From: Chloroflexota bacterium
GTDB taxonomy: Bacteria > Chloroflexota > Anaerolineae > 4572-78 > J111
Length of the DNA stretch: 34,099 bases
Reading direction: 5' to 3'
Assembly: GCA_020049115.1 (NCBI GenBank)
Contig: JAIFLK010000110.1
Span: 1-34,099, forward strand
Below the pieces are notes generated by a model. It had not been told where the DNA came from, made no database searches, and was given only the letters and a program-made list of their open reading frames with translations. A program made the position numbers and the translations under genes. Shown here in pieces: positions 6,881-33,757 of this stretch. Every line of letters starts with the position of its first letter. Position 1 is the first letter of the stretch.

Positions 6881-6901
6881 AAAGGGATTATCCTTAAATA
6901 T

Positions 6902-7019
6902 ACTCAGTATATCAAGATTTGTCACCCTCACCCCTGCCCTCTCCCAAAGGGCGAGGGAGTCTCTTGTCTCCCCTCTCCTGTGGGAGAGGGGCGGGGGTGA
7001 GGTGTTTGCGTAAGTCCTA
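6902..7019. repeat. Inverted-repeat element with mismatched ends
   Basis: The body carries a long imperfect inverted repeat: CCTCACCCCTGCCCTCTCCC near 6925-6945 pairs with GGGAGAGGGGCGGGGGTGAG near 6983-7001. The right end TTTGCGTAAGTCCTA (7005-7019) matches the termini of the elements at 8419-8670, 19157-19286 and 32761-32889. The left end CTCAGTATATCAAGATTT instead matches the end of the element at 29182-29275. It therefore looks like a chimera of two families, or one element inserted in another. No gene is present. Confidence 0.65.
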
Positions 7020-8708: not shown

Positions 8709-11312
8709 TTACGGTTTCCTACGATAAAATCTTGCTATATTGAACGTAGGAATTGAAATATTCATCTTTTTTAGTCTGACAGAAATGAGAACGTAATATT
8801 TCTTCCAGGAAGAGCTAATTACAATCAAGATAACAATAAACATGGCGAGCGTTGCAGTGGCAATAACCGGAAACATCCATGAGGGACGCGCTTTAGGAGG
8901 GGGAGCAGCATTACTGGCTAATGGTTTAGAAATCTCAACGGTAGTAGTCATAGTATCTGTTTCAACCATGCTTGGAATAACTGTATTAGAGGTCACAGGG
9001 GGCGAGAAATCAATTTTTAAACTCCCCATGGTAATTTGAGTACCTTCAATGATAGCTAAAGAATACTTTAAGCGGCTTTGTAAGGAGGAGCTAATTAATA
9101 GCGTATTTGCTAACTGCAACCCTTCATTACTCGTACCCAAAACCATTAAAACACTATAATCGCCATTCCAGGGCAGAGGTACAATTTGCAAATAGCCGAT
9201 ATGAGTGCCTGTTATAATTCGTGGCCTGATACGCACCCCGTTCTCTATCGCTAGGTTACTGCCTGGTTCAAATGAGGCGGGCAGAATTTTTTTCAATTGC
9301 GAAACAATAGGTAACTCATTAGGTAAGCCAATCGCAATAAAATGATGATTTTGCCTTAGCTCTGCTGGTATATCGTCAGCAAAAGCAACTTTAAATTGCG
9401 CGATATTGGTTTGTACTCGCCTCCCCAAATTAAAAGCAATTTGAGTCGCAACATTCCAGGCAACTGAGTTGGTAGCAGGTAATAGAAATACAGTAGTTGT
9501 TAAGGTTTTATTAAAATCAAAAGGTGAAGGGTAATTTTGTAAGCTAAAAACGGATTTAATTTCAGGAGGATTTTTCTTCAATGGTAAATGAAATGAAGAA
9601 TCAGCCCATACTGTAAACCAAAAATCATCTGAATTTTGAACCATACATTTATTAGTGGTGTCGGGCATGAGGTTTGCCGAGACTACAAAGTCATTTGTTC
9701 CTGGATGAACCAACGAACGAGGGATATTCACTTTTAAGGTTGTAGGATTAGCCCCATCTGGCGTTAAACGGACACTCTTTAAGGAGCGATTATTTAATCT
9801 AACTGTAACATTTGAGGTTGAAAAATCAAATAAGGTACTGTGGTTATAAATTAAATTAAAATAAGCGGCATCGTTAATATAATAGCCCATCGGCATGTTA
9901 AAAGGGAAGTTGATTTTATTAACGCCACCATTCAATACAGTTTGTTCTTCATAACCTAAATCGCTCAAAGTTTGGTCAAAATCGGAAATATAGACAGTAT
10001 CATCTTGATTATAAAGGTCAGCAATAATCGCCAAATTAGGTTGATTAGAAATTCTTACTTCACCCGTACTGATGGCTTGGCCTGCTTTGAAGACCGCCAA
10101 GTCAGAATTACCCCCTACTACTAGGACTACTTTTTCTGGATTCCATGGGGAAACGGCCATCTGTATAATACCATCATCAGGTAAAGCAGCCGTAGCTTCA
10201 AAACCGACTTCACCAATGGGGGCTGGTAAAGTAACTTGTTGGAGTAAGGGAAATGCTTGGCTAGTGCCTATAAAAATTAAATGGGTTGATTCTCGCTGTT
10301 CTGCGGTTAGCTGACTAAGAGTTGTAGTTGAAAAAACTAAGCCACCTGCGGTCATTTGGCCGAAAGCATTGGCGGTGGCTAGGGCTGCTTGCAATTCAGT
10401 AGTCGTTGGCTTATCAGGTAAAACAAAGGTCGCTGGGTCTGACAGAAAGGTGTTTTGATAAATGGGGCGAGGTAAAAATTGTAAATCTATTAACGGGGTA
10501 ACGATTTTACGAGCTAAAACCAGGGTAGATGACGGCTCAATAACCACACTCAGAGTATTACAATCAGCACTACTGCTTTGAAATTTGAACCCCACTTCAT
10601 GGCGGCCATCAGCACTTTGAGGTATAAAAGCCGTCGCGCTAATGGGTAGAGAGAGTTGTTTATTTCCCAATTCAGTAATGGGTAACTCAGTTAAAAGCAC
10701 CCGATTAAATAGTACCTGTAATGAACCACTTGGCGTAACATTGGATAAGAGTGAAGTAATATTAAAATCCAAATTAAGTTCTGTTCCTGTAATCAATTGT
10801 TGGCTAGCAGGTAATCCAAGCCGAAGGGTATATGAGCCGAGTGGACTATTTAAAAGTTGTTCTTTAACTCCAAGCATCTCAAAACTAACTATATCAAAAT
10901 TATTTCGCTTTGAGGTGACTTGAGGACGAGTAGGGTCAATAGATGAAGTAATCAGGTTTGTTTGTGTAATGATGGGCGCAGGAGTTATTACTTGAGTTAC
11001 GGCAATAATACTATCAGATATAATTTTGGCCGGAATTATGGTAACACTGGCAGGAGAAACGGTATTACCCGATATGACTTGGTTGGAAATTATTGTAGTA
11101 GGAGAGATAAGAGGAGTAGATATTGCTTTGGTAGAGGTTATTGTAGCAGTTAAGGTAACGGGACGAAAAGTAATACTATTAGATGACGTTAATGGACTCA
11201 GTACAAAAGCCCCAGGTAGACCATTTTGGGCATAGTTCGGCTGAATGGCATATAACCAGATACAAAAGCTACTCAACAATAAGTAATATAGATGATGTTT
11301 TTGCATACTCAT
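8709..11312 (-). CDS. BcsB-like periplasmic polysaccharide synthase subunit
   Basis: The protein (867 residues) starts with a signal peptide (MSMQKHHLYYLLLSSFCIWL, cleavage probably near residue 29) and ends with one transmembrane helix (about 812-834) and a basic cytoplasmic tail, the topology of BcsB. The middle shows the BcsB pattern of alternating carbohydrate-binding-like and flavodoxin-like parts, including LPATNSVAWNVATQIAFNLG and HHFIAIGLPNELP. In cellulose synthases BcsB guides the emerging glucan through the periplasm beside BcsA. Here no BcsA with PilZ is visible; the nearest membrane glycosyltransferase is the GT2 at 13302-14465. Residues about 45-125 are an unusual Ile/Thr/Ser/Val-rich low-complexity stretch with repeated II(S/T/P) units, making the protein longer than typical BcsB. 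The product need not be cellulose. Confidence 0.87.
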   Translation of the reverse strand: MSMQKHHLYYLLLSSFCIWLYAIQPNYAQNGLPGAFVLSPLTSSNSITFRPVTLTATITSTKAISTPLISPTTIISNQVISGNTVSPASVTIIPAKIISDSIIAVTQVITPAPIITQTNLITSSIDPTRPQVTSKRNNFDIVSFEMLGVKEQLLNSPLGSYTLRLGLPASQQLITGTELNLDFNITSLLSNVTPSGSLQVLFNRVLLTELPITELGNKQLSLPISATAFIPQSADGRHEVGFKFQSSSADCNTLSVVIEPSSTLVLARKIVTPLIDLQFLPRPIYQNTFLSDPATFVLPDKPTTTELQAALATANAFGQMTAGGLVFSTTTLSQLTAEQRESTHLIFIGTSQAFPLLQQVTLPAPIGEVGFEATAALPDDGIIQMAVSPWNPEKVVLVVGGNSDLAVFKAGQAISTGEVRISNQPNLAIIADLYNQDDTVYISDFDQTLSDLGYEEQTVLNGGVNKINFPFNMPMGYYINDAAYFNLIYNHSTLFDFSTSNVTVRLNNRSLKSVRLTPDGANPTTLKVNIPRSLVHPGTNDFVVSANLMPDTTNKCMVQNSDDFWFTVWADSSFHLPLKKNPPEIKSVFSLQNYPSPFDFNKTLTTTVFLLPATNSVAWNVATQIAFNLGRRVQTNIAQFKVAFADDIPAELRQNHHFIAIGLPNELPIVSQLKKILPASFEPGSNLAIENGVRIRPRIITGTHIGYLQIVPLPWNGDYSVLMVLGTSNEGLQLANTLLISSSLQSRLKYSLAIIEGTQITMGSLKIDFSPPVTSNTVIPSMVETDTMTTTVEISKPLASNAAPPPKARPSWMFPVIATATLAMFIVILIVISSSWKKYYVLISVRLKKMNISIPTFNIARFYRRKP

Positions 11313-11337: not shown

Positions 11338-13239
11338 TTAAACAACATAACGTTCATACCACAAGCTAAACATGAGTAAATTCCAAATATTGTGGCTATG
11401 ATTTTGTCGCCCCTGCCAATGAGCTTGTAAAATTTGTTGCACCATGGCCGAGTCAAAAAAACCTTGTCGGGTTACTTGTTGCACTGATAAATGGTCGCCC
11501 ACCAAATCTTTTAAATCAGTTTTTATCCAACGGGCAACTGGTACATGGAAACCTGCTTTGGGGCGGGTTAAAATTTCGTTAGGCAAAACGCGGGTGGCAA
11601 TCCGTTTGAGTAAATATTTAAGGGTTAAGCCACGCACTTTCAGATGGCTTGGCAACCTGGTCATGAATTCCACCAGGCGCAAATCTAAAAACGGTACTCG
11701 CACCTCCAATGAATGAGCCATGCTCACGCGGTCAACCTTAGTCAACATATCGTCAGGTAGTTGTACCTTGCAATCGACATAAAGCAACCGATTGAGCATG
11801 TCATCGCTAGGGTAGCCATCAAAAATTTGTTGCATGAAAGTGACGGAAGGGTTTAATGAAGCCGCATGTTGCCGTAAATAGGCTGGATTATAAAGACGGT
11901 GCTTCATTTCTTCACTAAAAAAAGCTTTCCATTCAAAATGGGCGGGCAAAGGAGCTAAGGCACCGCCCGCCATAAACCGCTTAAGTTTGAAATCGAAACT
12001 CACTTTTTCATCGGAAGTAGGCACCAGATTAGCCAATTTAGGAATTAAGCCTCCGCCGATAAATTTAGGTAATTTACGGTAATAATGGGCGATTTTATCC
12101 GCTTGATAAGTATAATAGCCCCCAAAAAACTCATCGCCACCGTCACCACTGAGAATAACTTTAAGGTGTTTGGCGGCCATTTCGCTAATAGCATAAACCC
12201 CTACCGCCGAAGAATCGGCAAAGGGTTCGTCAAAATAATCCGAAATAGCGGCTACAATATCATGCGCCTTTGGCTTTAAGATAACTTCATGGTGGTCAGT
12301 TTTATAATGATTAGCGACAATTTTTGCGAAGGGCAATTCACTGTAACTTTCTTCCTCAAAACCTGCCGAGAATGTCCGCACGGGTTGGTTAGAAGCCTCG
12401 CTCATTAAGGCCACCACTAAACTGGAGTCAATCCCGCCACTGAGAAACGCCCCTAGCGGCACATCACTTATCATTTGGTCTTTGACAATTTGACGTAATA
12501 AATGAAGGAGTTCATCCTCTAGTTCACGCGTAGCTTGCTGTTTGACTCGTTGCGGGTCAGGTGTGGGATAATCCCAATATTGCTCAACGTTTATTTTCTT
12601 GGTGGTATTTTCATACGTTAAAATATGCCCTGGCAAAAGTTTCTTAATGCCGCTAAAAAGCGATTCGGGGCCAGGGACGTAATTAAGTGAGAGATAATTA
12701 TGCAGCCCAACGGGGTCAACCTGTCGCGCCATGCCGTCAGGTAATATGGCCTTAATCTCTGAGCCAAAAACCAAACGGTCATTTAATTGAGCGTAATACA
12801 AGGGTTTAATACCCACATGGTCGCGAGCTAAAATAAGCCGTTGGCGGCGTTCATCCCAAATAGCAACCGCAAACATGCCATTAATATATTTAACAAAATT
12901 GTCGCCTTCATCTTCATATAAATGAACAATTGTTTCAGTATCGGTATGGGTACTAAATTGGTGGCCTGCTCGCTCCAGTCGTTGACGTAACTCCAGAAAG
13001 TTATACAGTTCACCATTATAGACAATCCACACGGTGCCATCTTCGTTAGATATGGGCATACGACCACCCTCTACGTCAATGATAGAGAGCCGTCTTGAAC
13101 CTAAACCCACGTTTCCTTTAAGATAAAAACCGTTAGAATCAGGCCCACGCTTAACAATGGCATCCGTCATGGCTACCAAAATATCAGGCTCAACAGGACG
13201 TTGGGAGTCATAATAAACTTTGCCGCATATTCCACACAT
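11338..13239 (-). CDS. Asparagine synthase-like glutamine amidotransferase (copy 1)
   Basis: This 633-residue protein has the full class II amidotransferase plan. Cys2 of MCGICGK is the glutaminase nucleophile, and RGPDSNGF, NGELYNF and DTETIVHLYE complete the glutaminase domain (about 1-200). The synthetase domain follows with the ATP-pyrophosphatase loop FLSGGIDSS and LSGDGGDEFFGGY. Classic AsnB makes asparagine from aspartate, but paralogues in surface-polysaccharide loci amidate the carboxyl group of uronic acids (WbpS in Pseudomonas O-antigen is a known candidate example). The context, between a membrane GT2 and a BcsB-like gene, favours polymer amidation. It is clearly diverged from the two near-duplicate copies at 17191 and 20270, so it may act on a different residue or acceptor. 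Confidence 0.93.
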   Translation of the reverse strand: MCGICGKVYYDSQRPVEPDILVAMTDAIVKRGPDSNGFYLKGNVGLGSRRLSIIDVEGGRMPISNEDGTVWIVYNGELYNFLELRQRLERAGHQFSTHTDTETIVHLYEDEGDNFVKYINGMFAVAIWDERRQRLILARDHVGIKPLYYAQLNDRLVFGSEIKAILPDGMARQVDPVGLHNYLSLNYVPGPESLFSGIKKLLPGHILTYENTTKKINVEQYWDYPTPDPQRVKQQATRELEDELLHLLRQIVKDQMISDVPLGAFLSGGIDSSLVVALMSEASNQPVRTFSAGFEEESYSELPFAKIVANHYKTDHHEVILKPKAHDIVAAISDYFDEPFADSSAVGVYAISEMAAKHLKVILSGDGGDEFFGGYYTYQADKIAHYYRKLPKFIGGGLIPKLANLVPTSDEKVSFDFKLKRFMAGGALAPLPAHFEWKAFFSEEMKHRLYNPAYLRQHAASLNPSVTFMQQIFDGYPSDDMLNRLLYVDCKVQLPDDMLTKVDRVSMAHSLEVRVPFLDLRLVEFMTRLPSHLKVRGLTLKYLLKRIATRVLPNEILTRPKAGFHVPVARWIKTDLKDLVGDHLSVQQVTRQGFFDSAMVQQILQAHWQGRQNHSHNIWNLLMFSLWYERYVV

Positions 13240-17190: not shown

Positions 17191-19098
17191 TCAGTTTTTC
17201 TGGTTAGGCGGGTTTTGAAGAAAGGACTTGCTATCATAGTAATGTCTGGCCCAAGAATCGAGCATTAATAATCGCCATAACCAACCACCAAAATTACGTT
17301 TACTGTTGGATTGATGAGCATTTAAGAGACTTTCAACGCCTTTCGTATTCCACAAGCCGCGGTGGTGGGCTTCGTTGGATAAAAGCCGTTCACGGGCGAA
17401 TTTTTGCCCGGCGGGATCTTTAAACCAATCGCCTAAAGGTGCGCCAAAACCACGTTTAGCCGCTTGCTGAATTTGATTAGGCAACAATTTACGAGATAAA
17501 TCCCGCAAAGGAACTTTACCATGTTTGGAGTTAAATAACGTAGTACGGGGCAAACGCGCCGCCCACTCCACTAAACGGTAATCAATTAAAGGCGACCTGA
17601 CTTCAATTGAATGAGCCATGGAGGCGCGGTCTACTTTCACTAAAATATCATCAGGTAAATAGCTGGTGTAATCAAGCCATTGCTGACGCGCCATGAGAGA
17701 TTGGCTAGGATATTGTTGCCATCTATCCCATAAGGGTTTCCCAGTTTGGGGTAATAGGGCCTTAAAATCAGCCGTTAAAATCAAATCAAAGATAGGGTCA
17801 ATCGGGGGTTTATTTTGGGTTTCAGCCAGTCCGCCTGGCGGCAAAGTTGTTCGGGCTAACCAATAACTTACTAGCGATTGGCGTGGTAAAAGGGTCGAGA
17901 CTGCTTGAAGGGCTTGACCAATCGGGGCAGGCACCGCGTCGGCTAAACGCGCGCGCTTGGTTTTAAAATATTTGGTGTAACCACCAAAAGCCTCATCGCC
18001 GCCGTCCCCTGATAAAAATACAGTGGCATATTCTGCCGCTGCTTTACATAAATTAAAGGTAGGGATACTAGAAGAATCCCCAAAGGGTTCATCAAAAAAC
18101 CATGAGAGTTGGTCAACATCTTGGATGCTACTAGGGGGTTGGGGAATAATTTGTTGTTCTAAGCCCACATGCCGCGCTGTAGCGGTGGCTAATGAAACCT
18201 CATTATATTTCGCTTCATTAAAACCAATCGTGAGGGCTAAAGGGCGGACATTGGATTGGGCCGCTAGAGCCGTAATTAAACCACTATCTATGCCCCCCGA
18301 GAGAAAAACCCCCACTGGCACATCACTTCGTAGCCGAATTTGCACGGCGTTAGTCAGCAAATTAAGTAAATCATCTAATTGTTGCGGGGTCAGCACACTG
18401 ATACTTTCGTCATCATTAATGCTGACTTTCCAATAACAAGTCGATTGGGCGCGGTGTGGTTCAGCAAATGAACCACTTAAATAACAGCCTGGGGCTAGTT
18501 TCTGATACCCCTTAAAAATACAGGTTTCATTGGGTAAATAATGGAAAGCAAAATATTCTAAAATAGCGGCCTGGTTTAGTTCAAAGGTCGCGTCAGGCCA
18601 AGCTAACAATATCTTTAACTCGGAAGCAAAACGTAACTGACCAGGCAAGGTTTGGTAATAAAGTGGCTTCACGCCTAAACGGTCACGCGCCATGATGAAT
18701 GTCCCTACGACGGTATCCACAAAACAAAAAGCAAACATGCCATTTAGCTTGGAAATGGCGGCGGGGCCTTCAAGGGCTAATAAGCGGAGCAACACTTCGG
18801 TATCGGACGTGCCGCGAAAGGTTTCCCCTTTTTGCTCTAGTTCACGGCGTAACTCAACATAATTATAAATTTCGCCATTGAAATTTATCCAATACCGTTT
18901 ATCAGGCGAGGACATAGGCTGATGCCCTAATGGACTTAAGTCTAAAATACTTAAACGCCTAAAGCCTAACCCCCACCCAGGGCCACCTTCAAAACCATGG
19001 TCATTAGGGCCGCGATGTTGTAATAATTGGGATAAGTTGGCCTGAAGACGCTCAGACATTTGAATAGGATAGCCCATATAACCAAAAATGCCGCACAT
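17191..19098 (-). CDS. Asparagine synthase-like glutamine amidotransferase (copy 2)
   Basis: This 635-residue class II amidotransferase has Cys2 of MCGIFGYMG as glutaminase nucleophile, then QHRGPNDHGFEGG, NFNGEIYNYVEL and GTSDTEVLLRLL. Its synthetase domain carries VFLSGGIDSGL (PPi loop) and LSGDGGDEAFGGY. It closely resembles the protein at 20270-22174 over its whole length and shares the same upstream AGTTACCTTAACCTTTT (plus-strand reading), which supplies an AAGGTAA ribosome binding site. The pair therefore arose by recent duplication, with a methyltransferase between. In this polymer locus the likely job is amidation of a carboxylated sugar, not asparagine supply; that is inferred from context. 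Confidence 0.93.
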   Translation of the reverse strand: MCGIFGYMGYPIQMSERLQANLSQLLQHRGPNDHGFEGGPGWGLGFRRLSILDLSPLGHQPMSSPDKRYWINFNGEIYNYVELRRELEQKGETFRGTSDTEVLLRLLALEGPAAISKLNGMFAFCFVDTVVGTFIMARDRLGVKPLYYQTLPGQLRFASELKILLAWPDATFELNQAAILEYFAFHYLPNETCIFKGYQKLAPGCYLSGSFAEPHRAQSTCYWKVSINDDESISVLTPQQLDDLLNLLTNAVQIRLRSDVPVGVFLSGGIDSGLITALAAQSNVRPLALTIGFNEAKYNEVSLATATARHVGLEQQIIPQPPSSIQDVDQLSWFFDEPFGDSSSIPTFNLCKAAAEYATVFLSGDGGDEAFGGYTKYFKTKRARLADAVPAPIGQALQAVSTLLPRQSLVSYWLARTTLPPGGLAETQNKPPIDPIFDLILTADFKALLPQTGKPLWDRWQQYPSQSLMARQQWLDYTSYLPDDILVKVDRASMAHSIEVRSPLIDYRLVEWAARLPRTTLFNSKHGKVPLRDLSRKLLPNQIQQAAKRGFGAPLGDWFKDPAGQKFARERLLSNEAHHRGLWNTKGVESLLNAHQSNSKRNFGGWLWRLLMLDSWARHYYDSKSFLQNPPNQKN

Positions 19099-20269: not shown

Positions 20270-22174
20270 CTATTTATGGTTAGGCAGGTTTTGCAGAAAG
20301 GCTTTGCTATCCAGGTAATTTCTGGCCCAAGCATCAAGCATCAATAATTGCCATAACCAACCACCAAAATCTCGGCCATTGTTAGCCCGTTGAGCATTAA
20401 GCACAGTTTCAACCCCTTTAGTGTTCCATAAACCGCGCTGATGGGCTTCATTGGATAAAAGCCGTTCACGAGCAAATTTTTGGCCTTCGGGCTGTCTAAA
20501 CCAATGGTCTAACGGCACGCCAAAACCCCGTTTTGCCCCTTGCTGCACTTGACTGGGGAGTAATTGACGGGATAATGCTCGCAAGGGCAATTTACCTTGC
20601 TCTGTATTAAGTAAGGTGGTGCGCGGTAGATGCGCCGCCCACTCCACTAAACGGTAATCTAGCAACGGAGAACGTACTTCAATGGAATGAGCCATAGACG
20701 CGCGGTCTACTTTAACCAAAACGTCATCAGGTAAATAGGCCGTATAATCAATCCATTGGCGGCGAGCAGTGGCAGAGGCACTAGGATATTGCGCCCATCG
20801 GTCCCACAACGGTTTGCCAGCTTGGGGCAAAAGTGCCTTGTAATCCGCCGTTAATACTAACTCAAAAGTGGGGTCAACGGGGATACGATTTGGGGTGGAG
20901 GCCAGGCCCGTAGAAGGCAAGTTTCGGCGGGCTAACCGATAACGAAATGCGGACTCGGCGGGGAGGAGGGTGGAAATGGCTTGCAGAGCTTGACCAATGG
21001 GCGCGGGGACGGCATCGGATAAACGGGCGCGCCTGGTTTTAATATATTTGTTATATCCGCCAAAGGCTTCATCTCCCCCGTCGCCTGATAAAAATACGGT
21101 GGCGTATTCAGCCGCCACCTTACATAAATTAAAAGTTGGAATGCTTGAGGGGTCACCAAACGGTTCATCAAAAAACCACGCGAGTTGGTCAACATCTTGT
21201 AAGCTACTAGGGGGTTGCGGGATAATTTGTTGTTCCAGCCCAACATATTTCGCGGTGGCTTGCGCTAATGAGATTTCGTTATATTTTGGCTCATCAAAAC
21301 CAATCGTTAAGGCCAAAGGACGCACATTGGCTTGGGCGGCGAGTGCCGTCACTAAACCACTATCAATACCACCTGACAGAAAAATACCCACTGGCACATC
21401 ACTACGAAGGCGAATTTGCACGGCATTGGTCAACAAACTAAGTAAATCATCTAATTGTGTCGGGGTTAATATAGTGACACTTTCATCGTCATTGAGGTTA
21501 ACTTTCCAATAACAGGTAGACTGAGCGCGGTGGGGTTCAGCAAATGAGCCACTTAAATAACAGCCTGGGGCCAGTTTTTGATACCCTTTGAAAATACAGG
21601 TTTCACTTGGTAAATATTCCAACGCGAAATATTCTACCACCGCCGTAGGGTTCAATTCAAAGGTGGCATCAGGCCAAGCCAACAAAATTTTTAATTCTGA
21701 GGCAAAACGTAATTGACCAGGTAAGGTTTGGTAATATAATGGCTTCACCCCTAAACGGTCACGGGCCATGATGAATGTCCCCGCGACGGTATCCACAAAA
21801 CAAAAGGCAAACATACCATTTAATTTAGAGATGGCTGAGGGGCCTTCTAACATTAATAAACGTAGTAATATCTCAGTATCTGACGTACCGCGAAAGCTCT
21901 CCCCTTTTTGCTCCAATTCATGACGCAATTCAACATAATTATATATTTCGCCATTGAAATTTATCCAATATCGTTTATCAGGCGAAGACATGGGCTGATG
22001 ACCTAATGGACTTAAGTCCAGAATACTTAGCCGCCTAAAACCCAACCCCCAACCAGGGCCACCTTCAAAACCCTCATCATTAGGGCCGCGATGTTGTAAT
22101 AAAGCAGATAAATTGGCATGTAAATGCTCTGACATGCGGATGGGATAGCCCATATAACCAAATATTCCACACAT
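20270..22174 (-). CDS. Asparagine synthase-like glutamine amidotransferase (copy 3)
   Basis: This 634-residue protein has the same plan as copy 2: MCGIFGYMG with Cys2, QHRGPNDEGFEGG, GTSDTEILLRLL, IFLSGGIDSGL and LSGDGGDEAFGGY. Runs of identical residues with copy 2 cover most of the first 270 residues; differences concentrate near residues 195-205 and 385-430. All catalytic motifs are intact, so both copies should be active. Differences between them may reflect acceptor choice or simple drift. The start is supported by the AAGGTAA ribosome binding site shared with copy 2. It is separated from the upstream GT4 gene by a perfect palindrome at 22222-22248. Confidence 0.93.
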   Translation of the reverse strand: MCGIFGYMGYPIRMSEHLHANLSALLQHRGPNDEGFEGGPGWGLGFRRLSILDLSPLGHQPMSSPDKRYWINFNGEIYNYVELRHELEQKGESFRGTSDTEILLRLLMLEGPSAISKLNGMFAFCFVDTVAGTFIMARDRLGVKPLYYQTLPGQLRFASELKILLAWPDATFELNPTAVVEYFALEYLPSETCIFKGYQKLAPGCYLSGSFAEPHRAQSTCYWKVNLNDDESVTILTPTQLDDLLSLLTNAVQIRLRSDVPVGIFLSGGIDSGLVTALAAQANVRPLALTIGFDEPKYNEISLAQATAKYVGLEQQIIPQPPSSLQDVDQLAWFFDEPFGDPSSIPTFNLCKVAAEYATVFLSGDGGDEAFGGYNKYIKTRRARLSDAVPAPIGQALQAISTLLPAESAFRYRLARRNLPSTGLASTPNRIPVDPTFELVLTADYKALLPQAGKPLWDRWAQYPSASATARRQWIDYTAYLPDDVLVKVDRASMAHSIEVRSPLLDYRLVEWAAHLPRTTLLNTEQGKLPLRALSRQLLPSQVQQGAKRGFGVPLDHWFRQPEGQKFARERLLSNEAHQRGLWNTKGVETVLNAQRANNGRDFGGWLWQLLMLDAWARNYLDSKAFLQNLPNHK

Positions 22175-24502: not shown

Positions 24503-26014
24503 TTATTTAGTTAAAGCTTTAGCTTTTTGTGCCTCACTCAATTTGAAAACTATTTGTAATTCTCGTCTAGCGACATTTGGAACTGAAAACATAACCCCCC
24601 ATATGAGCCAATACATTCGAGAATAGGAGATATGACAAAATATTCCAGTCAACGAAAAACTGATGCCCGCAACAGCCAAAGCGATGGCCGTACCCGCCGA
24701 GTCAGGCAAACCCGCTTTGAAAAAATCTTGTCGGGCTTGCCATAATGACCATAGCAAGTAAATATTCATGCAACCAAACCAAGTTAAGCCCATTAACCCA
24801 AGTTCTGAGCCAAGTTGTAAGAATAAATTATGAGGCGCACTATTTTCACCTAAATCATCAAAAATACCTATCTGACGGGCATAACTTTGATAATGATAAG
24901 AAAAATGGTAAAAACCCACGCCTAAAAAAGGATGATCTTTGAACATTAACATTCCCGCTTGATTTTCACTCAAACGCCCCTTCAAGGATGCATCTTGGGT
25001 CACGCCTGCATCACTTGAAACAATTTTACCAAATGAACTCATTCTTTCCATATATTTAGTAGGAACGAGGGGAAGACAAAGAATAGATAAAAAAAGTATC
25101 ATCATCATTATTTTCGGGCTAGGGGGACGAAAAACGAACATTAGGAAAATTACTAAGACCATGCCCAAAAACGCGGAACGGGAGTAAGTTAAAATAATCG
25201 CCCCTAAACAGGCAATTAAGGCCCAACTGGCAAAAAAACTGTTGATGGGCTTTCGTTCAGTCCAAAAGGTATTCATGGCTAAAGGCAATAAAGCAATCAG
25301 AAATACAGAGAAATCATTAGGAGCAAAATTAGGGCCAGCTATCCGAAATTCACCCCCACCCTTCCCCATGTTACCCGTAATGGAGCGTTCTTGAGCCACA
25401 CTAAGACCACCATAATTATCTCTGTAATTTTGAGTAACTTCTTGATGAATGGCTAGGGTGCCTAAAATAATACAGACCACCATCAAAGCCCAAATAACCC
25501 GCCGTAAGGTTGCAGCGGTATGGGTAAAAATAGTGACAAAAATCGCAATAGCCATCGCTTTTTGATAGTGGTCTAAATTAGGCATAATGCGGTTAGGGTC
25601 AGCCGCATATAACATAGAACCCATCGTCATTGCGAGATACCAAACCACAAAAAAGGTAATAGGCCCCCAGCCTTTTGGCCTTTCACCATACCACCACCAG
25701 CGAAAAATAATCACGAAGATATAAAAAGCAAGGTATGGTAATAGAATAGAGGGCGTACCATGAAACTTCTGTAATACATCATTAAGATTAAGATACGTCA
25801 TAAAGACCAGAAATAGCAAGGGTTTCTCTGGGTCTAATAGGGCGATATTTACTGCATAAAGGCCAACGATAATGGCAACAATCCCATAAACGGCATACAT
25901 GGGGTTGGACATATTAACAATAGCTAAACCTAGTGTATTTCCTAAGGCAACAGCCAATAAACCCAATAAAATAGTAGCTATATTAACTTTAGATAAGGTC
26001 ATTTTAGATAGCAT
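24503..26014 (-). CDS. Wzy/WaaL-type O-antigen polymerase or ligase
   Basis: This 503-residue protein has about ten or more membrane helices with one large periplasmic loop (roughly residues 325-395). That loop contains SENQAGMLMFKDHPFLGVGF and ends in ENSAPHNLFLQLGSELG, the pattern of the O-antigen ligase/polymerase superfamily (Wzy_C). A basic loop with SITGNMGKGGGEFRIAGPN precedes it. Because flippase and chain-length genes are nearby, polymerisation of flipped repeat units is the likely role; ligation to another acceptor cannot be excluded. It lies 15 bp downstream of the Wzz-like gene, so the two are probably co-expressed. Confidence 0.91.
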   Translation of the reverse strand: MLSKMTLSKVNIATILLGLLAVALGNTLGLAIVNMSNPMYAVYGIVAIIVGLYAVNIALLDPEKPLLFLVFMTYLNLNDVLQKFHGTPSILLPYLAFYIFVIIFRWWWYGERPKGWGPITFFVVWYLAMTMGSMLYAADPNRIMPNLDHYQKAMAIAIFVTIFTHTAATLRRVIWALMVVCIILGTLAIHQEVTQNYRDNYGGLSVAQERSITGNMGKGGGEFRIAGPNFAPNDFSVFLIALLPLAMNTFWTERKPINSFFASWALIACLGAIILTYSRSAFLGMVLVIFLMFVFRPPSPKIMMMILFLSILCLPLVPTKYMERMSSFGKIVSSDAGVTQDASLKGRLSENQAGMLMFKDHPFLGVGFYHFSYHYQSYARQIGIFDDLGENSAPHNLFLQLGSELGLMGLTWFGCMNIYLLWSLWQARQDFFKAGLPDSAGTAIALAVAGISFSLTGIFCHISYSRMYWLIWGVMFSVPNVARRELQIVFKLSEAQKAKALTK

Positions 26015-26029
26015 AATGGCTGAACCTCG

Positions 26030-27163
26030 CTAATTATTGGAGAGCAAAACTGTTTTAGCATTATTTTGGTGGGTCCACTTTAAGGCAGTTTCAATTCTTT
26101 CCAGAATAATGGCTAAAGGTTCGCCTTCTTGATAAGGAGCTACCCCAATTTGAGGCTTTAGAAAAACAATGCGTTGCTCACTCTCGTTATCTAACGGTTC
26201 GAAATGGAGAGGCCGCATGAGAACTTTTCTGACTCGCTCAAAGCCATCCAAGGCCACTTTTCCCGTAATTTTAGGCAAAAAAATCACTAAACTCGTTTCA
26301 CCCCAATAAGCTATAACGGTCTCTTTGGCTATAATGCGTAATTCACTATGTAAAATTTCAGCGGTGCGGTCTAAAACGTCAACCCAAGTGGATTTTTCAT
26401 CCGTCTCTACCTCAATATTACCCAAACCCGTCAATTGGACTAAGGCTAAGGCCATGGGTTCATTTTTATTTTTAGTCACTTCTTCTTGCAAGAGTGCTTC
26501 AAAAGAACTCCAACTATGAACAGCATCCCCTAAACTGCCTGACTTTAATTGACTTACGACATTAAAAGCGGTTGAAAGATACTCTCGAATAAAAGCGAGG
26601 AAACTGCCCATAGCCAGCCCTACAAATACAGCCACTCCAGCATCACGACCAGGGGTCATATTTGTTGGGGTTGTTGATACGCTGGCTTTTTCAAGTTCCT
26701 GAATATCATAGACGGGATAAGACGTATGAATAAAATCAACCGAAATTCGCCCCAATTCATTGGCGAGTAAGGCCGCAATTTCTGGGTTAGGTCCTTCTAC
26801 GTAAATCTGTAATACACTGGCTTCAGGTAAAACCATGGCCTTCGAAACATATTTACCTCGCTCGTTGTCACTTAACTTAATGCCATCGGCTGCTTTTTTA
26901 ATGAAATTAGGGCTATTCATGACCTCAACAAACGTCGAAACAACCGAACGCTTATCCAACACATCCATGCTTCTAAGAATGACATCATCGGTGCTTGCTA
27001 AAAGCGCGGCAGAAGGGCTAACCACAAATCGCATGTAAGAACTACGATATAAGGGGATTGTTCGATAGGAATTTATTAACGCAGCGTTAAGGGCGGATAA
27101 AGTACAAAGCAATATTATCCACCAGCTACGCCGAGCCATTTTTAGAATCTCTTCTGCCTGCAT
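26030..27163 (-). CDS. Wzz-like chain-length protein fused to a degenerate GGDEF domain
   Basis: This 377-residue protein has a Wzz layout at the front: membrane helix 1 (about 14-31), a periplasmic part (about 32-172) with ISVDFIHTSYPVYDIQELEKA before the second helix, a Pro-containing stretch, and membrane helix 2 (about 175-193). Instead of ending there, it continues with about 160 cytoplasmic residues patterned like a GGDEF domain: PMALALVQLTGLGNI, then WVDVLDRTAEILHSEL, the hairpin AYWGETSLVIFLP, and IGVAPYQEGEPLAIILERIE. Aligned by eye, G-E-T-S-L replaces G-G-D-E-F, so diguanylate cyclase activity is not expected. It could sense c-di-GMP or a partner protein and adjust chain length. It lacks the Walker motifs of Wzc-type tyrosine kinases. 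It lies 11 bp after the GT4 gene and just before the polymerase. Confidence 0.88.
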   Translation of the reverse strand: MQAEEILKMARRSWWIILLCTLSALNAALINSYRTIPLYRSSYMRFVVSPSAALLASTDDVILRSMDVLDKRSVVSTFVEVMNSPNFIKKAADGIKLSDNERGKYVSKAMVLPEASVLQIYVEGPNPEIAALLANELGRISVDFIHTSYPVYDIQELEKASVSTTPTNMTPGRDAGVAVFVGLAMGSFLAFIREYLSTAFNVVSQLKSGSLGDAVHSWSSFEALLQEEVTKNKNEPMALALVQLTGLGNIEVETDEKSTWVDVLDRTAEILHSELRIIAKETVIAYWGETSLVIFLPKITGKVALDGFERVRKVLMRPLHFEPLDNESEQRIVFLKPQIGVAPYQEGEPLAIILERIETALKWTHQNNAKTVLLSNN

Positions 27164-27174
27164 AATACTAAACC

Positions 27175-28389
27175 CTATACTTGGCTAAAAATCTCATATA
27201 ATTTAGCGGTGTTAAGTTGTAAGTTAAAATCAGTTATAACCTTAACATGTCCTGCTTGGCCTAACTTTTTACCTAATTCTGGCGAATGATAGAGCCGTAA
27301 TAAAGCTGTTGCCAAAGCCTTAGCATCACGCTCAGGCACTAATAAACCTGTTTGACCATCTTTAATAAGTTCGGGTACACCTGAAAAGTTAGTACCAATG
27401 GTGGGCAATTGCATGGCTAAGGCTTCCATGAGAGCTACAGGGATACCCTCTTTTTTACCATCAGGCATGGTAATGCTGGGTAATACCATCGCGTCGGCCT
27501 GATTAAGCAACTTGCTTACCTCATGACGTGGTTGTAACCCCAATAAAGTGACCTGTTTTTCAAGACCCAACTTAGCAATAATCGCCTCTATTTGAGGCCG
27601 TCTATCACCTTCACCCACCAACAAACAGCGAAAATTAATATTTTGCGCTTTTAATTCTGCACAGGCTTCCACTAAATAAACCTGTCCTTTTCTTTCTTCT
27701 AAACTGCCTACACAGACAATAGTAAAGATTTCATTACGTTTATCGGTTTGACGCGGTTGAAATATAGTTGCATCAACGCCACAATAAATCACCTTAACTT
27801 TTTGGGTTAACGCCGTGCCATATAACTGGCGCAAAAACTCACGGTTATATTCAGAAATAGTAATGACAAATTTTGCTTCGCTAATCTTTTCAGCGAGCAT
27901 TTCCTGACTGACATGAATATCGTGAGCATGTGCCGTAAAACTATAAGAAATTCCCGTAAGCTGTTTGATAATATAAGCAGCTAAGGCAGGGTAGGTCGCC
28001 CAATGAGCATGGACATGGTGAATCCCTAAAGCCTGCATTTGGCGAGCCATTAAAGCGGCCAACGGCACAACAGTTAAGCATCGAAATAGGTTTATCGGAG
28101 AGGTTAAGTTACCACGAATGACTTGCCCATAAAGCGACACATATAACAAAGGGTGCCTAAAAAGCCAATAAAACTGGGCCATGAGCAGTTCTAAGGAAAA
28201 AAAAGAATTGTAATGCGCTCGTTCCACTAAGGCTTGGGCTTCAGGATGTTTTATGGTTTCATCTTGTTTGAATAACGGGAAAACATCTATTTTAAGACCC
28301 AGTTTTTCGAGTTCTAAAATTTCATAAAGAATGAAGGTTTCCGTTACTTTAGGGAAACGGGACATCATATAAGCTATTTTTCGTTCCAC
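27175..28389 (-). CDS. Glycosyltransferase, family 4, WcaL-like
   Basis: This 404-residue GT-B enzyme starts MSRFPKVTETFILYEILELE (from residue 8), the opening typical of colanic-acid WcaL-like transferases, and continues with HHVHAHWATYPALAAY and SFTAHAHDI. The donor domain shows IVCVGSLEERKGQVYLVEAC and the E-x7-E region KKEGIPVALMEALAMQLP. The start is a GTG directly after the upstream stop, with GGGGGTG about 8 nt upstream as ribosome binding site inside the end of the sugar-transferase gene. Tight coupling suggests it adds one of the first sugars after the priming step. Donor unknown. Confidence 0.92.
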   Translation of the reverse strand: MERKIAYMMSRFPKVTETFILYEILELEKLGLKIDVFPLFKQDETIKHPEAQALVERAHYNSFFSLELLMAQFYWLFRHPLLYVSLYGQVIRGNLTSPINLFRCLTVVPLAALMARQMQALGIHHVHAHWATYPALAAYIIKQLTGISYSFTAHAHDIHVSQEMLAEKISEAKFVITISEYNREFLRQLYGTALTQKVKVIYCGVDATIFQPRQTDKRNEIFTIVCVGSLEERKGQVYLVEACAELKAQNINFRCLLVGEGDRRPQIEAIIAKLGLEKQVTLLGLQPRHEVSKLLNQADAMVLPSITMPDGKKEGIPVALMEALAMQLPTIGTNFSGVPELIKDGQTGLLVPERDAKALATALLRLYHSPELGKKLGQAGHVKVITDFNLQLNTAKLYEIFSQV

Positions 28390-29124
28390 TTAATGCACCC
28401 CCTTTTGCATCACTACCGCAAGGACTGTCCGCAAAAGAATTTGGATATCTAACGATAATGAACGATGTTCAATATAGAAAATATCCAAATAAACCCTATC
28501 AATAAACTCCATGTTACCACGCCCCATAATTTGCCATAAGCCTGTAATACCAGGAATTACATCAAGCCGCTGAGTTTGCCATAAATCGTATGTTTCCGCC
28601 TGAAATGAGGTAGGGCGCGGCCCAACTAGGCTCATGTCTCCTAATAAAACATTTAATAATTGCGGAATTTCATCTAGGCTGGTTTTGCGGAGAAAACGCC
28701 CCACTTTAGTCACCCGAGGGTCTTTGGTAATTTTAAAGTCAGGCCATTTCAATTCATTAAGGTGGGCGTAGGTTTGTTTTAGCTCCTCGGCATTGTAAAC
28801 CATGCTACGGAATTTATACATTCCAAAACGCAGCCCACCTTTGCCTGTACGTTGTTGGGTAAAAAGCGCGGGGCCCTTGCGGTCTTCCAATTTAATGAGT
28901 AACGCACATATTACATAAAGTGGCGAAAGGAGTGGCATGGCAAGCACCACCATAATAACATCCATCACCCGTTTAGCCAGCAAATACGATCTTCCTTGTA
29001 GCCAAGGCTTACCCGTATTAAACTCTTCTAACCATTTATATTGTTGGAAGATACGCCGTTTAAAAATAAAAATATCTTGATATTGGACGCTCTTCGCTGG
29101 AATTGACTCTTCTGGTTTAGTCAT
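28390..29124 (-). CDS. Initiating polyprenyl-phosphate sugar-phosphate transferase
   Basis: This 244-residue protein is a minimal bacterial sugar transferase of the WcaJ/WbaP/PglC superfamily. It has a single hydrophobic segment (about 52-78) with an internal Pro, as in the re-entrant helix of PglC, then KFRSM near 104-108, the catalytic Asp-Glu in [10 protein letters not shown] (Asp151-Glu152), [10 protein letters not shown] and [12 protein letters not shown]. It transfers a sugar 1-phosphate from a nucleotide sugar to undecaprenyl phosphate on the inner membrane, starting the repeat unit. The multi-helix N-terminal domain of WcaJ-like proteins is absent. As the first polymer gene transcribed after the signalling block, it is a natural point of control. 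Confidence 0.94.
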
Positions 29125-29293: not shown

Positions 29294-29875
29294 CTATTCA
29301 AAGTAGGTTCCTAACCACATCGAAAAGAGAAAAAATATCATGGAGACGACAAATATGAGAATAAGATTGGTTTTTTGTTGGTTGGTGGTTTTTGTTTCCT
29401 CAAAATTATTAGAACCATTTTCAGTGACATACTCCGTTGTAACCGCCCAACGGCTTTCAATTCGTTTTAATTTTCCCCGCACACTTGCCAAAATATCGTC
29501 AGGTTCAGCCCCTTTAGCAATATAATCATCAACGCCAAGTTCCTTTCCTTGGCGAATATCTTCATTTGATAATTTTGCTGTTAGAAAAATAAAGGGAATA
29601 GAATTTAAATAAGGATTAGCCCTTACCTGATTAAAAAACTGATAGCCATCCATCACGGGCATCATAATATCTGACAAGATTAAGTCAGGTAAGCAATTAA
29701 ATTCCTTATTATTACCCTGAAATGCACCCTGGAGTTCTTCAAGTGCATGCTTACCATTTTGAGCTTTCCAAACTTTGTAGCCATCCATTTCCAAAGTTAG
29801 CTCAATGGCAAATGAAAACTCCGTGTTATCATCTACTACCATAATTAAGGCTTTATAATCACGACCTTTGTTCAT
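29294..29875 (-). CDS. Receiver-domain protein with C-terminal membrane anchor
   Basis: This 193-residue protein has a CheY-like receiver domain (about 8-135): Asp15-Asp16 in VVDDN, phospho-acceptor Asp69 in LILSDIMMP, Thr99 in IFLTAK and Lys121 in DDYIAKGAE, so all key residues are present. A polar linker (about 140-168) leads to one hydrophobic helix (about 169-190) near the end, which should tether the receiver to the inner membrane. There is no DNA-binding or enzymatic output domain. It is 27 bp downstream of the histidine kinase gene and just ahead of the polymer genes, so it may receive phosphate from that kinase and act on a membrane partner such as the sugar transferase or the Wzz-like protein; that link is inference. 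Confidence 0.9.
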   Translation of the reverse strand: MNKGRDYKALIMVVDDNTEFSFAIELTLEMDGYKVWKAQNGKHALEELQGAFQGNNKEFNCLPDLILSDIMMPVMDGYQFFNQVRANPYLNSIPFIFLTAKLSNEDIRQGKELGVDDYIAKGAEPDDILASVRGKLKRIESRWAVTTEYVTENGSNNFEETKTTNQQKTNLILIFVVSMIFFLFSMWLGTYFE

Positions 29876-29902
29876 GGTCTTTTATTTACATCCTGTTTTA
29901 AT

Positions 29903-32734
29903 TTATTGAGAAACTAATGCGGGAAGTTTAACTACAAAGGTACTACCCTTATTGGGCAAGCTATTTAGCTCTATTTTGCCATGATGAGCGTCAATAATTT
30001 CTTTAACAATCGCTAAACCTAGCCCTGTACCTGGGATGGTATGAGCAGAGTCAACCCGATAAAAACGCTCAAAAATACGAGGTTGATGTTCCAATGGAAT
30101 ACCAATGCCCGTATCAACTACTTGAATTATGACAAAGGCATGGCTATTTGTCAACTCCAATAAATTTTCTACTTCAACCACCCCACCCATTTGGGTATAT
30201 TTTATTCCATTTTCTACTAAATTAACGATAACCCGCTTCAACTGATTTTTATCACCTAAAACCATGAGTTGAGCCGCAGGTTTTTTCCATTTCAAGTTAA
30301 TTTGCTTAGTTTCTGCTAATGCTTTTAACTCTAAAATAGTTTCATCTAACAACTCACCTAAGTTAAGTGGTTCAGCCTTCATCTTAATAGTCGTAGCGTC
30401 AAATTGAGATAGTTCCAATATATTTTCTACTAATTGAGTCAAAATATTGGTTTGAGACTCAATGGCATTTAATAACTCAACCCGTTTTAAGGAAGGCAAA
30501 CGGTCATGATAATTTAATAAATTTTTCGCTTGCAGTTTGATAATTGAAAGGGGTGTTTTTAATTCATGAGTTATACCCGTCATAAAACGGGCTTTCACTC
30601 GCTCCACTTCCTTTAAGGCCGTTAAATCACTTAATACAATAACCGTACCAATGTCTTCCCCATGCTCATTTTTAACCTCGGCTGAGTGCGCCTGAATAGA
30701 TTGACCGTTGCCACTTTGGTCAAAGATATCGACAATGTGGGTCTGATTGGGTTTAGCCTCTTGCACAATATCACTAATACAACGCCATAAAGGGTGAACT
30801 AGTTTTTTAGGCTCAATCGCTAAACCTACCAAATCCTTTAACTTAAACTCTAACATCGCCTCAGCCACTTGATTAGCCATTAAAATATGATTATCAGCAT
30901 CAAAAACCAATAGACCATCAGCCATGCTCGCTAAAATGGCCTCGGTTTTCTCTTTTTCGTCCGCCAATAATCGAGTTCGTTCAATAACCATTTGCTCTAA
31001 ATGGCGATTAAATTTTTGCACTTCCGCAAATAAACGCGCATTTTCTACCGCAATCCCAATCGAACTAGCTACAGGTTGCACTAGCCGTAAATGTTGATAA
31101 TTAAACCAATTTGGTTGCTGGTGCATGACCTGCATCACGCCAATAATTTCACCCTTTACTTGTAAAGGCACACATAACATCGCCTTAGGCTGATAATTAA
31201 CCTTATTGGCTACATGCTTAAAATAATGATCTTCTTCAGACACATCCTCGGCAATATAAGTTTCACCCGTTTCAATCACATGTCCCGCAATTCCCTGGTG
31301 GCTGGGCAGCCGAAAACCCGCCAAAACATCTGCGCCTATCCCTGATGAAGCGGTAAGTTCTAGCTGCTGGCTTGATACATCTAATAACCATAAAGAAGCC
31401 ACTTCGGATTGCAATGAATTTTGGATTAGGGTTGTAGTTTGTTTTAATATTTGGTTTAAATCAAACGTGGAAGTCAGAGCCTGGCCAATTTCATTCAAGG
31501 CAATTAAATCATCAACCTGCTGCTGTACACCCTCTAATAAATACGCATTTTCAATCGCCACCGCAATAATCGCCGCCGCCGAATGAATCACTTGCCAATC
31601 AATCTCATCAAAAACTTCCCCTTGTTTATTAACCACCGCAATCACGCCCACTTCCTGTTCTCGGCTTAACATAGGCGTGTAGTGGATAAGATGACCAGGC
31701 GGAATAGCTTTTAGATTTAATTCAGGTTGACAATCGGCTAACACTTTAACAATCAAAGGTATTATTTCTTTTTGTTTTACCAAATAATGGATTTCATCTA
31801 GCGACTTAACCCCCATCACTTGAGAAACCCGTTGGCCGAAAACTGATGAAGCCGTAATCACTAACTCTTTATTTTCATTGAGTAATAATAAAACAACTAC
31901 TTCCGCCTTCGTCAGAGTAGAAAGTTTTTGTAATGATACCGCGAGGATTTCTTCCAAATTAAGAGAAGAATTAACCACTAAAGCCAATTCATTGACCAAT
32001 TGCAACCCATTATTACGCTGAGTGGTTAAACGGGTTTGGCTTTGGGCTTTGGCTTCAGCTCGCTTGAGGCGAACAACGGCCCGCACCCGCGACATAAACT
32101 CATCTTTCATAAAGGGACGTTTGATATAGTCATCTGCCCCCATGGTCAACCCATCACTCACCTCGTTTGAACCTCGATGATGAGCCGTTAATAAAATAAC
32201 TCCCATGTTTTTGGTTAATTCATCTGATTTTAAGATGCTCAACAATTCCAAACCACTCATCTTGGGCATTTGAATATCACTAATAACCAGCCCTGGTAGC
32301 ACAGTTCGAGCCTTTTCTAAGGCTTCCTGCCCGCTAGAAGCCAGGCTTAACTTAAATTCACTATCTTTGAACATATACTGAATTAAAAAACGGTTTTCAA
32401 TGACATCGTCTACCACCAAAACATGGTTTAAATCAAGATCAACCGTTTGAGTCGTTTGAGTCGTCGAAGCAGCTTTGGCTTCTGCCGATTTAGCTGGCTG
32501 GGGGATAAGCCCAAGCGCGTAGTTTAAAGCCGCTTGGACCTCACTTAAAGCCAGCCCCATATTTTGCAGCACAAGTTCTTCTGGTAATGAAATAGCCAAC
32601 TGTTGTAAAATTTCATACACCGGCAATTGAGCGCGGCCTATCACAGGCACACCATCAACCATTATAGCATTTAATTGAATAGGCTGGGTTAAAGTCACCA
32701 AGTTCACCATTGAATCTTCTCTAAGTTTAGACAT
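29903..32734 (-). CDS. DUF433-REC-GAF-GAF-PAS histidine kinase
   Basis: This soluble multidomain sensor kinase has about 943 residues and no membrane helix. In order: a DUF433-like region (about 17-76; IMVDGVPVIGRAQLPVYEIL then LALSEVQAALNYA); a receiver (104-222) with Asp110-Asp111, phospho-acceptor Asp154, Thr184 and Lys206; GAF1 (about 245-395); GAF2 (about 415-570); PAS (about 596-708); HisKA with His724 in GITHELKTPL; and a HATPase with VENGIKY, DTGIGIP (875-881) and GTGLGLA. Residue numbers count from a TTG at 32737; I prefer the next codon, ATG at 32734. An ATG at 32710 is a further alternative and would keep the DUF433-like part. The receiver lies before the kinase core, so the protein is probably itself a phosphorelay target. 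It heads the polymer cluster and likely controls it. Confidence 0.92.
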   Translation of the reverse strand: MSKLREDSMVNLVTLTQPIQLNAIMVDGVPVIGRAQLPVYEILQQLAISLPEELVLQNMGLALSEVQAALNYALGLIPQPAKSAEAKAASTTQTTQTVDLDLNHVLVVDDVIENRFLIQYMFKDSEFKLSLASSGQEALEKARTVLPGLVISDIQMPKMSGLELLSILKSDELTKNMGVILLTAHHRGSNEVSDGLTMGADDYIKRPFMKDEFMSRVRAVVRLKRAEAKAQSQTRLTTQRNNGLQLVNELALVVNSSLNLEEILAVSLQKLSTLTKAEVVVLLLLNENKELVITASSVFGQRVSQVMGVKSLDEIHYLVKQKEIIPLIVKVLADCQPELNLKAIPPGHLIHYTPMLSREQEVGVIAVVNKQGEVFDEIDWQVIHSAAAIIAVAIENAYLLEGVQQQVDDLIALNEIGQALTSTFDLNQILKQTTTLIQNSLQSEVASLWLLDVSSQQLELTASSGIGADVLAGFRLPSHQGIAGHVIETGETYIAEDVSEEDHYFKHVANKVNYQPKAMLCVPLQVKGEIIGVMQVMHQQPNWFNYQHLRLVQPVASSIGIAVENARLFAEVQKFNRHLEQMVIERTRLLADEKEKTEAILASMADGLLVFDADNHILMANQVAEAMLEFKLKDLVGLAIEPKKLVHPLWRCISDIVQEAKPNQTHIVDIFDQSGNGQSIQAHSAEVKNEHGEDIGTVIVLSDLTALKEVERVKARFMTGITHELKTPLSIIKLQAKNLLNYHDRLPSLKRVELLNAIESQTNILTQLVENILELSQFDATTIKMKAEPLNLGELLDETILELKALAETKQINLKWKKPAAQLMVLGDKNQLKRVIVNLVENGIKYTQMGGVVEVENLLELTNSHAFVIIQVVDTGIGIPLEHQPRIFERFYRVDSAHTIPGTGLGLAIVKEIIDAHHGKIELNSLPNKGSTFVVKLPALVSQ

Positions 32735-32760
32735 CAAGAAAAGAAAGATAGCCTAATAAA

Positions 32761-32905: not shown

Positions 32906-33757
32906 CTATACTTTATCACTCAATAAATTTTGAAATTTGCTTTCAGCTTGAGCCATAAGTTCTTCAAAAGTAAGGGCTTCATCAGGAAAAGTAGCTCCTC
33001 CACACATAATCGGAAAGCCAATTTTTTCTTTAGTAATGGTTTGGATATGCTCAATCAATGACGGTAATTCTTTAGCAGTTGTTTCTGGGCAGAAAATAAT
33101 GAGTTGACCATTTTCGCGTTGCTCAAAAATCAAGTCCGTACGGCGTAAATAATGGCTCACAATTTTCGCCATATTATTCACCATGTAATTATTAATCATT
33201 GATTTTTGCGCTTCTTGCACAATTTGATGTAAAGTCACTTTAATCGCTTGCGGGTCAGGCTTAATTACAATAAGGCTTAAAGAACGTTGATAATTACGAC
33301 TACGATACATCTCTGTTTGAATCTCGTCGTCAGCGTCATCAAAATGCCGAATTTGTTTATTTTTACTTTCAAAGGTAACTAGTTCAACCACATCTTCAAA
33401 ATCAATCAAAACTCGGCTAGTTTTCTGAGCAAAAAAAACACAGATTAAAATCAAACACAATTCTGTAATAAAAATGTAAGGATAAATCCCCGTTGACCAA
33501 GAATGTCCCAATCCTACCACTTCATAAATTACTTTACTTAAAATGTAAACAATAGACCAAAAACCTAATTGAGCAGAACTATTTGTTTTGGCTAAAGTAG
33601 GAAATATAATTGTGACAGCCACTGCAATAAAAGCGATAATATAGGCAACCCCATCCAAATTAATTGGCTTTGCGCTACTAACCCCCAAACGTTCAATATT
33701 AAACAAAATCGTGATACTCACAAAAAAAGCAATTAATGATAACCGTAAATTTCTCAT
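32906..33757 (-). CDS. Membrane protein with a degenerate GGDEF domain
   Basis: This 283-residue protein has about four membrane helices (near 5-22, 36-56, 66-82 and 92-111), a short linker and a cytoplasmic domain (about 143-283) that follows the GGDEF fold pattern. RTDLIFEQ leads into E-N-G-Q-L at 215-219 where GGDEF would stand, followed by IIFCPETT; then IGFPIMCGGATFPDEALTFE and AQAESKFQNLL match the C-terminal GGDEF region. Cyclase activity is not expected because the catalytic motif is lost. A receptor or scaffold role is possible, comparable in concept to PelD, a membrane protein with a degenerate GGDEF domain that controls Pel polymer synthesis. It is the first gene of the collinear block. 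The ATG at 33757 opens the frame. Confidence 0.87.
   Translation of the reverse strand: MRNLRLSLIAFFVSITILFNIERLGVSSAKPINLDGVAYIIAFIAVAVTIIFPTLAKTNSSAQLGFWSIVYILSKVIYEVVGLGHSWSTGIYPYIFITELCLILICVFFAQKTSRVLIDFEDVVELVTFESKNKQIRHFDDADDEIQTEMYRSRNYQRSLSLIVIKPDPQAIKVTLHQIVQEAQKSMINNYMVNNMAKIVSHYLRRTDLIFEQRENGQLIIFCPETTAKELPSLIEHIQTITKEKIGFPIMCGGATFPDEALTFEELMAQAESKFQNLLSDKV

Follow-up and report, generated by a model that had tools for sequence, protein, structure and literature searches.

Introduction

Cyclic di-GMP (c-di-GMP) acts directly on synthase-type machines for exopolysaccharides, i.e. those for cellulose, alginate, Pel, and PNAG. GGDEF domains form dimers and can be bridged by dimeric c-di-GMP through the inhibitory site (I-site, RxxD). 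Catalytically dead GGDEF domains serve as c-di-GMP receptors in PelD (PMC8461298, PMC7112168) and BcsE (PMC8461298). PelD binds the ligand through R-D-R residues, and in streptococcal PelD the domain has been lost in the absence of c-di-GMP (PMC8461298, PMC7112168). Among the co-polymerases of Wzx/Wzy systems, PCP-2 proteins alternate between oligomeric states, controlled by a tyrosine kinase, and the pseudokinase EcpK has been proposed to drive a PCP-2 protein through binding alone (PMC12004946). No description of a Wzx/Wzy co-polymerase with a c-di-GMP receptor domain was found in the open-access papers that were searched.

Here we describe a Wzz-type protein that continues into a degenerate GGDEF domain, encoded in a 34,099-nucleotide stretch of DNA from a Chloroflexota bacterium (contig JAIFLK010000110.1; hereafter the window). 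An earlier note, made from the sequence of the window alone, had pointed out this gene and had regarded its architecture as not known to be described. The open-access papers that we searched likewise contain no description of a Wzz-GGDEF protein; subscription papers, preprints, and domain-architecture databases, in which the combination may be listed without comment, lay outside the search.

Domain architecture of the Wzz-GGDEF protein

The ORF contains 377 open codons with an ATG start and zero internal stops. Its features are as follows.

26030-27163, minus strand: Wzz-GGDEF protein, whole gene, 377 aa (ORF, Pfam, homolog profile, AlphaFold, Foldseek)
26573-27163, minus strand: Wzz/CpsC-type part, residues 1-197, with two TM helices (14-34; within 171-207) and a small extracytoplasmic domain (Pfam Wzz, TIGR01006, AlphaFold)
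26042-26512, minus strand: degenerate GGDEF domain, residues 218-374 (homolog profile, per-member Pfam scans, AlphaFold, Foldseek)
26318-26338, minus strand: broken inhibitory site, R276-IIAKE-T282 for RxxD, with the Asp lost and a 3-residue insertion (alignments)
26288-26302, minus strand: GETSL (residues 288-292) replacing GG[DE]EF (alignments)

The Pfam Wzz model matches residues 5-93 (E 8.8e-7, 29.6 bits against a cut-off of 25.5), and residues 5-198 give a match to the CpsC-type model TIGR01006 that falls short of the cut-off. In the AlphaFold model, which was built from 71 rows and has a mean pLDDT of 87.8, TM1 (residues 14-34) is followed by a small extracytoplasmic domain and a long TM2/linker helix (residues 171-207). 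The protein thus has both the Wzz profile and the two TM helices around an extracytoplasmic domain that characterise the Wzz/PCP superfamily, with the orientation of the helices taken from the family.

On the window protein alone, the Pfam GGDEF model matches residues 221-366 with E 0.0055 and 16.9 bits, below the cut-off of 23.8; because this single-sequence match is weak, an alignment of homologs was required. A profile of 71 homologs matches solved GGDEF chains, with E-values down to 1e-22, over positions 193-360, and the helix/strand order of residues 218-374 in the AlphaFold model is that of a GGDEF domain. The top Foldseek matches in the PDB are GGDEF proteins, with TM-scores (on target) of 0.76-0.80 for the isolated GGDEF domains of DosC and a T. 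maritima cyclase. These data confirm that the protein is a Wzz/CpsC-type co-polymerase followed by a cytoplasmic GGDEF fold. The earlier note, which had placed the end of the Wzz part at the second helix, had read the same domain from its strand/helix order and had suggested structure prediction as a check; its reading was borne out by the homolog profile, the AlphaFold model, and the Foldseek matches. Matches to the NCBIfam models SiaD and PleD reflect the GGDEF fold, nothing more. Promoter and terminator scans yielded no excess over shuffled sequences.

Distribution of the family

About 90 full-length homologs with the same architecture were identified, including one from the cultured Herpetosiphon aurantiacus, and each of the 71 homologs that were scanned singly matches both Wzz and GGDEF (71/71). 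Relatives occur in other genera of the window organism's family and order, and Herpetosiphonaceae carry the same architecture; the cultured members include H. aurantiacus DSM 785 (CP000875.1, gene from about position 4498670 onward), H. geysericola, H. giganteus, and H. llansteffanensis. In a sample of 396 genomes of the class, the architecture was found in about 30 genomes; one of these copies begins at a contig end and another, in G005, is broken. The latter (L230, G005:C4:37001-39400) contains stops or frameshifts, and its genome encodes at least one canonical cyclase.

About 70 loci with the architecture were recovered when roughly 85,000 species were scanned. Full-length relatives were almost exclusively from Chloroflexota, although the search relied on short patterns of a single subgroup, so that independent fusions in other phyla could have been missed; three were from assemblies with other labels and are, in our view, misbinned contigs. 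The patterns were drawn from a closer alignment of 7 rows, as an alignment of 20 rows contained no usable conserved stretch. A scan of genome contigs with the single protein found no relatives. The search across genomes that the earlier note had called for thus recovered the same domain order in many homologs.

The distribution of fusions and domain-less proteins over a tree of the Wzz part requires about four to five changes. Domain-less proteins of a sister genus (G001 and G008) lie near the window protein inside the fusion clade, in a tree with several weakly supported branches, and this placement fits a secondary loss of the GGDEF domain.

Catalytic and inhibitory sites

The GG[DE]EF signature is absent from all 92 aligned rows, and the metal Asp, the guanine-site Asn, and the C-terminal Lys/Arg have been lost or vary across the family. 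In the window protein, the signature, the metal Asp, and the guanine-site Asn are all missing, so that the combination of GG[DE]EF and catalytic residues that defines a diguanylate cyclase is not present. The replacement by G-E-T-S-L had been read correctly from the letters in the earlier note, and the alignments support its prediction that the domain is catalytically dead.

The inhibitory site, by contrast, is mostly conserved in the family. Its Asp is present in 91 of the 92 rows, which makes it the best-kept residue of the domain, and its Arg in 86; an R-D-R triad, with the third residue being an Arg 28 residues past the I-site Asp, is present in 67. Part of this sample was gathered with a pattern containing RxxD, and in the 32 rows gathered by HMM or single-protein search alone the corresponding numbers are 31 (Asp), 27 (Arg), and 13 (triad). 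Judging from its spacing, the additional Arg may be the counterpart of the third Arg of PelD and PleD. The family thus carries the RxxD of I-site receptors of the PelD/BcsE type, and most of its members are likely to be c-di-GMP receptors.

The window protein does not carry this motif. It is the sole row of the 92 without the I-site Asp (Thr282 occupies the position), it carries an insertion of three residues between the positions of the Arg and the Asp, and it has also lost the Asp of DxxTG. Because of the lost I-site Asp and the insertion, c-di-GMP binding is unlikely here despite the presence of cyclases in the genome, and the domain is probably c-di-GMP-blind. The earlier note had suggested that the domain couples chain length to c-di-GMP or to a partner protein. 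Coupling to c-di-GMP is plausible for the family, in which no feature is better kept than the inhibitory site, but for the window protein coupling to a putative partner protein is the better reading.

Gene cluster and neighbouring genes

The genes around the Wzz-GGDEF gene to which we refer below are as follows.

24503-26014, minus strand: Wzy-type polymerase (Wzy_C; Pfam E 4.7e-22; synteny)
27175-28389, minus strand: glycosyltransferase, conserved neighbour (sequence look and synteny)
28390-29124, minus strand: initiating sugar transferase (PHPT), conserved neighbour (Pfam Bac_transf E 2.9e-63; synteny)
29294-32737, minus strand: hybrid histidine kinase and receiver protein with a C-terminal hydrophobic helix (Pfam scan)
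32906-33757, minus strand: companion protein, with 4 predicted TM helices and a degenerate GGDEF domain containing RRTD and no GGDEF signature (homologs, structure model, alignments)

In about half of the 70 loci, Wzy comes after Wzz-GGDEF, and the usual order in these is companion, sugar transferase, (glycosyltransferase), Wzz-GGDEF, Wzy, and Wzx. Wzz-GGDEF is followed by Wzy in 36 loci, directly by a BcsB-like gene in 33 (about half of the loci, e.g. L101, L107, and L122), and by neither in one (manual count); the window contains a Wzy-type locus. A BcsB-like protein (8709-11312, minus strand; Pfam BcsB E 1.6e-58) is also encoded inside the Wzx/Wzy-type cluster of the window. Neither in the window nor in the related loci examined was a BY-kinase or other tyrosine kinase found, and the fused or adjacent BY-kinase by which PCP-2a and PCP-2b proteins are defined is thus missing from them, although a kinase may be encoded elsewhere in the genome.

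The companion pseudo-GGDEF gene heads the cluster in the window and in 32 of the 70 related loci. The window's companion alone gives no Pfam GGDEF match, even at E 10; some of its homologs exceed the Pfam cut-off, and the assignment rests on these homologs and a structure model. The gene pair between the companion and PHPT genes in the window, encoding a receiver protein (29294-29875, minus strand) and a large hybrid histidine kinase (29903-32737, minus strand), is not present at this position in the relatives. It is a possible alternative input to the co-polymerase.

Elsewhere in the cluster, three asparagine-synthase-like proteins are encoded (17191-19098, 20270-22174, and 11338-13239, minus strand), two of which appear to be close paralogs by a look at their sequences. 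An 877-aa peptide-synthetase-like protein (3062-5695, minus strand) is encoded at the far end, near a sulfotransferase-like gene (5999-6931), both likewise judged from a sequence look.

Association with cyclases

Genomes were regarded as cyclase-positive when they contained a PF00990 match of more than 100 bits. EAL, PilZ, and GGDEF contents were examined in six genomes, including that of the window organism, which contains canonical cyclases and EAL domains; no PilZ match was found in it, the assembly being only 56% complete. No canonical cyclase was identified in 12 sampled genomes with the fusion. Among the weak GGDEF matches in these 12 genomes are companion-like proteins as well as receiver proteins whose GGDEF domain is degenerate. 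Such receiver proteins (L200, L203, L211, L217-L219, L221, and L222) are common in Chloroflexota genomes without canonical cyclases.

The full R-D-R triad is present in 14 of the 20 members from cyclase-positive genomes vs none of the 12 from cyclase-negative ones (Fisher p 1e-4, ancestry ignored). Domain-less co-polymerases of the same group are from cyclase-negative genomes in 9 of 10 cases, compared with 12 of 31 fusions (Fisher p 0.009, ancestry ignored); this count omits a distant eleventh case, G528, the genome of which has cyclases. Shared ancestry could produce both associations. Independent contrasts mostly point in the same direction, but only 1 to 5 are available, which is too few for significance. 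The RxxD of the companion shows no significant link to cyclase presence (p 0.25).

These distributions also bear on the possibility that the domain is only a structural dimerisation or scaffold module that does not bind c-di-GMP in any member of the family, with RxxD being kept for folding or protein contact. Seven of the 12 cyclase-less genomes that keep the fusion have Arg as well as Asp at the RxxD positions, a further cyclase-less genome (G003) retains them in one of its two copies, and the window copy, if functional, functions without the site. Because the fusion persists in several cyclase-less lineages, the domain must have a c-di-GMP-independent role there. The restriction of the triad to members from genomes with cyclases and the concentration of domain loss in genomes without them argue against extending such a role to the whole family, even if shared ancestry could account for both, and we regard a purely structural role as rather unlikely.

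Proposed mechanism and its alternatives

Overall, we consider it probable, with modest confidence, that the family represents Wzx/Wzy co-polymerases in which a pseudo-GGDEF domain replaces the kinase, acting as a c-di-GMP receptor in most members and as a scaffold or a rewired domain in the window organism. The dead domain occupies the place of the tyrosine kinase that PCP-2 proteins carry or recruit. It may control how the co-polymerase ring assembles and comes apart, and thereby the length or output of the chains, through self-dimerisation within the ring or through dimerisation with the companion membrane GGDEF protein. In most relatives, c-di-GMP bound to the kept inhibitory site would bias or set the state of the ring. 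In the window organism, in which the site is broken, the domain may be a c-di-GMP-independent scaffold that receives its input from a partner, with the companion and the inserted membrane-anchored response regulator as candidates; alternatively, it may be on its way to loss.

Several observations weigh against this reading: the window copy has no I-site Asp although its genome has cyclases, the fusion is retained in the 12 cyclase-less genomes, and the cyclase association comes from few independent lineages. In addition, decay is possible, as the domain has been lost from sister proteins of the window's lineage. The more specific proposal that Chloroflexota control ring assembly and chain length in Wzx/Wzy co-polymerases not by tyrosine phosphorylation but by c-di-GMP bound to the fused dead GGDEF domain, with the help of the companion, and that the window lineage has turned to input from a partner protein, perhaps the inserted membrane-anchored two-component system, is put forward tentatively.

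That the domain is a functionless remnant in the window's species would agree with this copy being the most degenerate member (both the I-site Asp and the DxxTG Asp are gone), with its Pfam score of the weakest type and its long branch, and with the complete loss of the domain in the sister genus. The reading frame is, however, open to its end and the fold is predicted with confidence, albeit leaning on homologs, and we consider such decay improbable. An active diguanylate or other nucleotide cyclase fused to the co-polymerase would share the GGDEF fold, but with GG[DE]EF in 0 of 92 rows and no conservation of the metal Asp, guanine-site Asn, or C-terminal Lys/Arg it is very improbable and was rejected. 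An artefactual joining of a wzz gene and a GGDEF gene by misassembly or a frameshift, which the earlier note had named as a possible refutation and which the fragmented, 55.9% complete assembly might suggest, is refuted by the fact that dozens of independent assemblies, as well as the complete H. aurantiacus genome, contain the same fusion, and its probability is negligible.

The co-polymerase with a pseudo-GGDEF domain in place of the kinase recurs in many Chloroflexota, a phylum whose matrix biology has been little studied, which suggests an undescribed mode of polysaccharide control. If the Herpetosiphon protein binds c-di-GMP, the predominant polysaccharide pathway would have its polymer length or its output under direct, kinase-free second-messenger control. 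With the site kept, the site broken, and the domain lost, the family also provides a natural series on the roles of pseudo-enzymes after ligand loss.

Comparison with known systems

The Wzz-GGDEF proteins share the Wzz domain, two TM helices, a Wzx/Wzy cluster, and a cytoplasmic regulatory part beyond TM2 with PCP-2 proteins (Wzc, and CapA/CpsC with the separate kinase CapB/CpsD). In the latter, a BY-kinase is fused or adjacent, whereas Wzz-GGDEF proteins have a dead GGDEF domain and no BY-kinase was found nearby. In EpsV/EcpK and HfsA/HfsB, pairs of a PCP-2 protein and a BY pseudokinase (PMC12004946), a dead cytoplasmic domain likewise serves the co-polymerase, with a proposed binding-only action, but there it is a stand-alone pseudokinase of P-loop fold and here a fused pseudo-GGDEF domain.

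PelD (PMC8461298, PMC7112168) is similar in being a membrane-anchored dead GGDEF protein in a polysaccharide machine, with RxxD also present in most Wzz-GGDEF relatives, and the companion has a PelD-like topology of 4 TM helices followed by a degenerate GGDEF domain. The loss of the domain in some Wzz-GGDEF relatives resembles that in streptococcal PelD. PelD differs in belonging to a synthase-type system, in having a GAF domain, and in having no Wzz part, and the window copy differs from it in having no I-site Asp. BcsE of the cellulose system (PMC8461298) also has a dead GGDEF domain in which the catalytic residues are gone and the I-site is retained, but is a soluble protein of cellulose synthase. 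Alg44 (PMC8461298) is, like the proposed role of most Wzz-GGDEF proteins, a co-polymerase-type protein controlled by c-di-GMP, but it acts through a PilZ domain and in the alginate synthase pathway.
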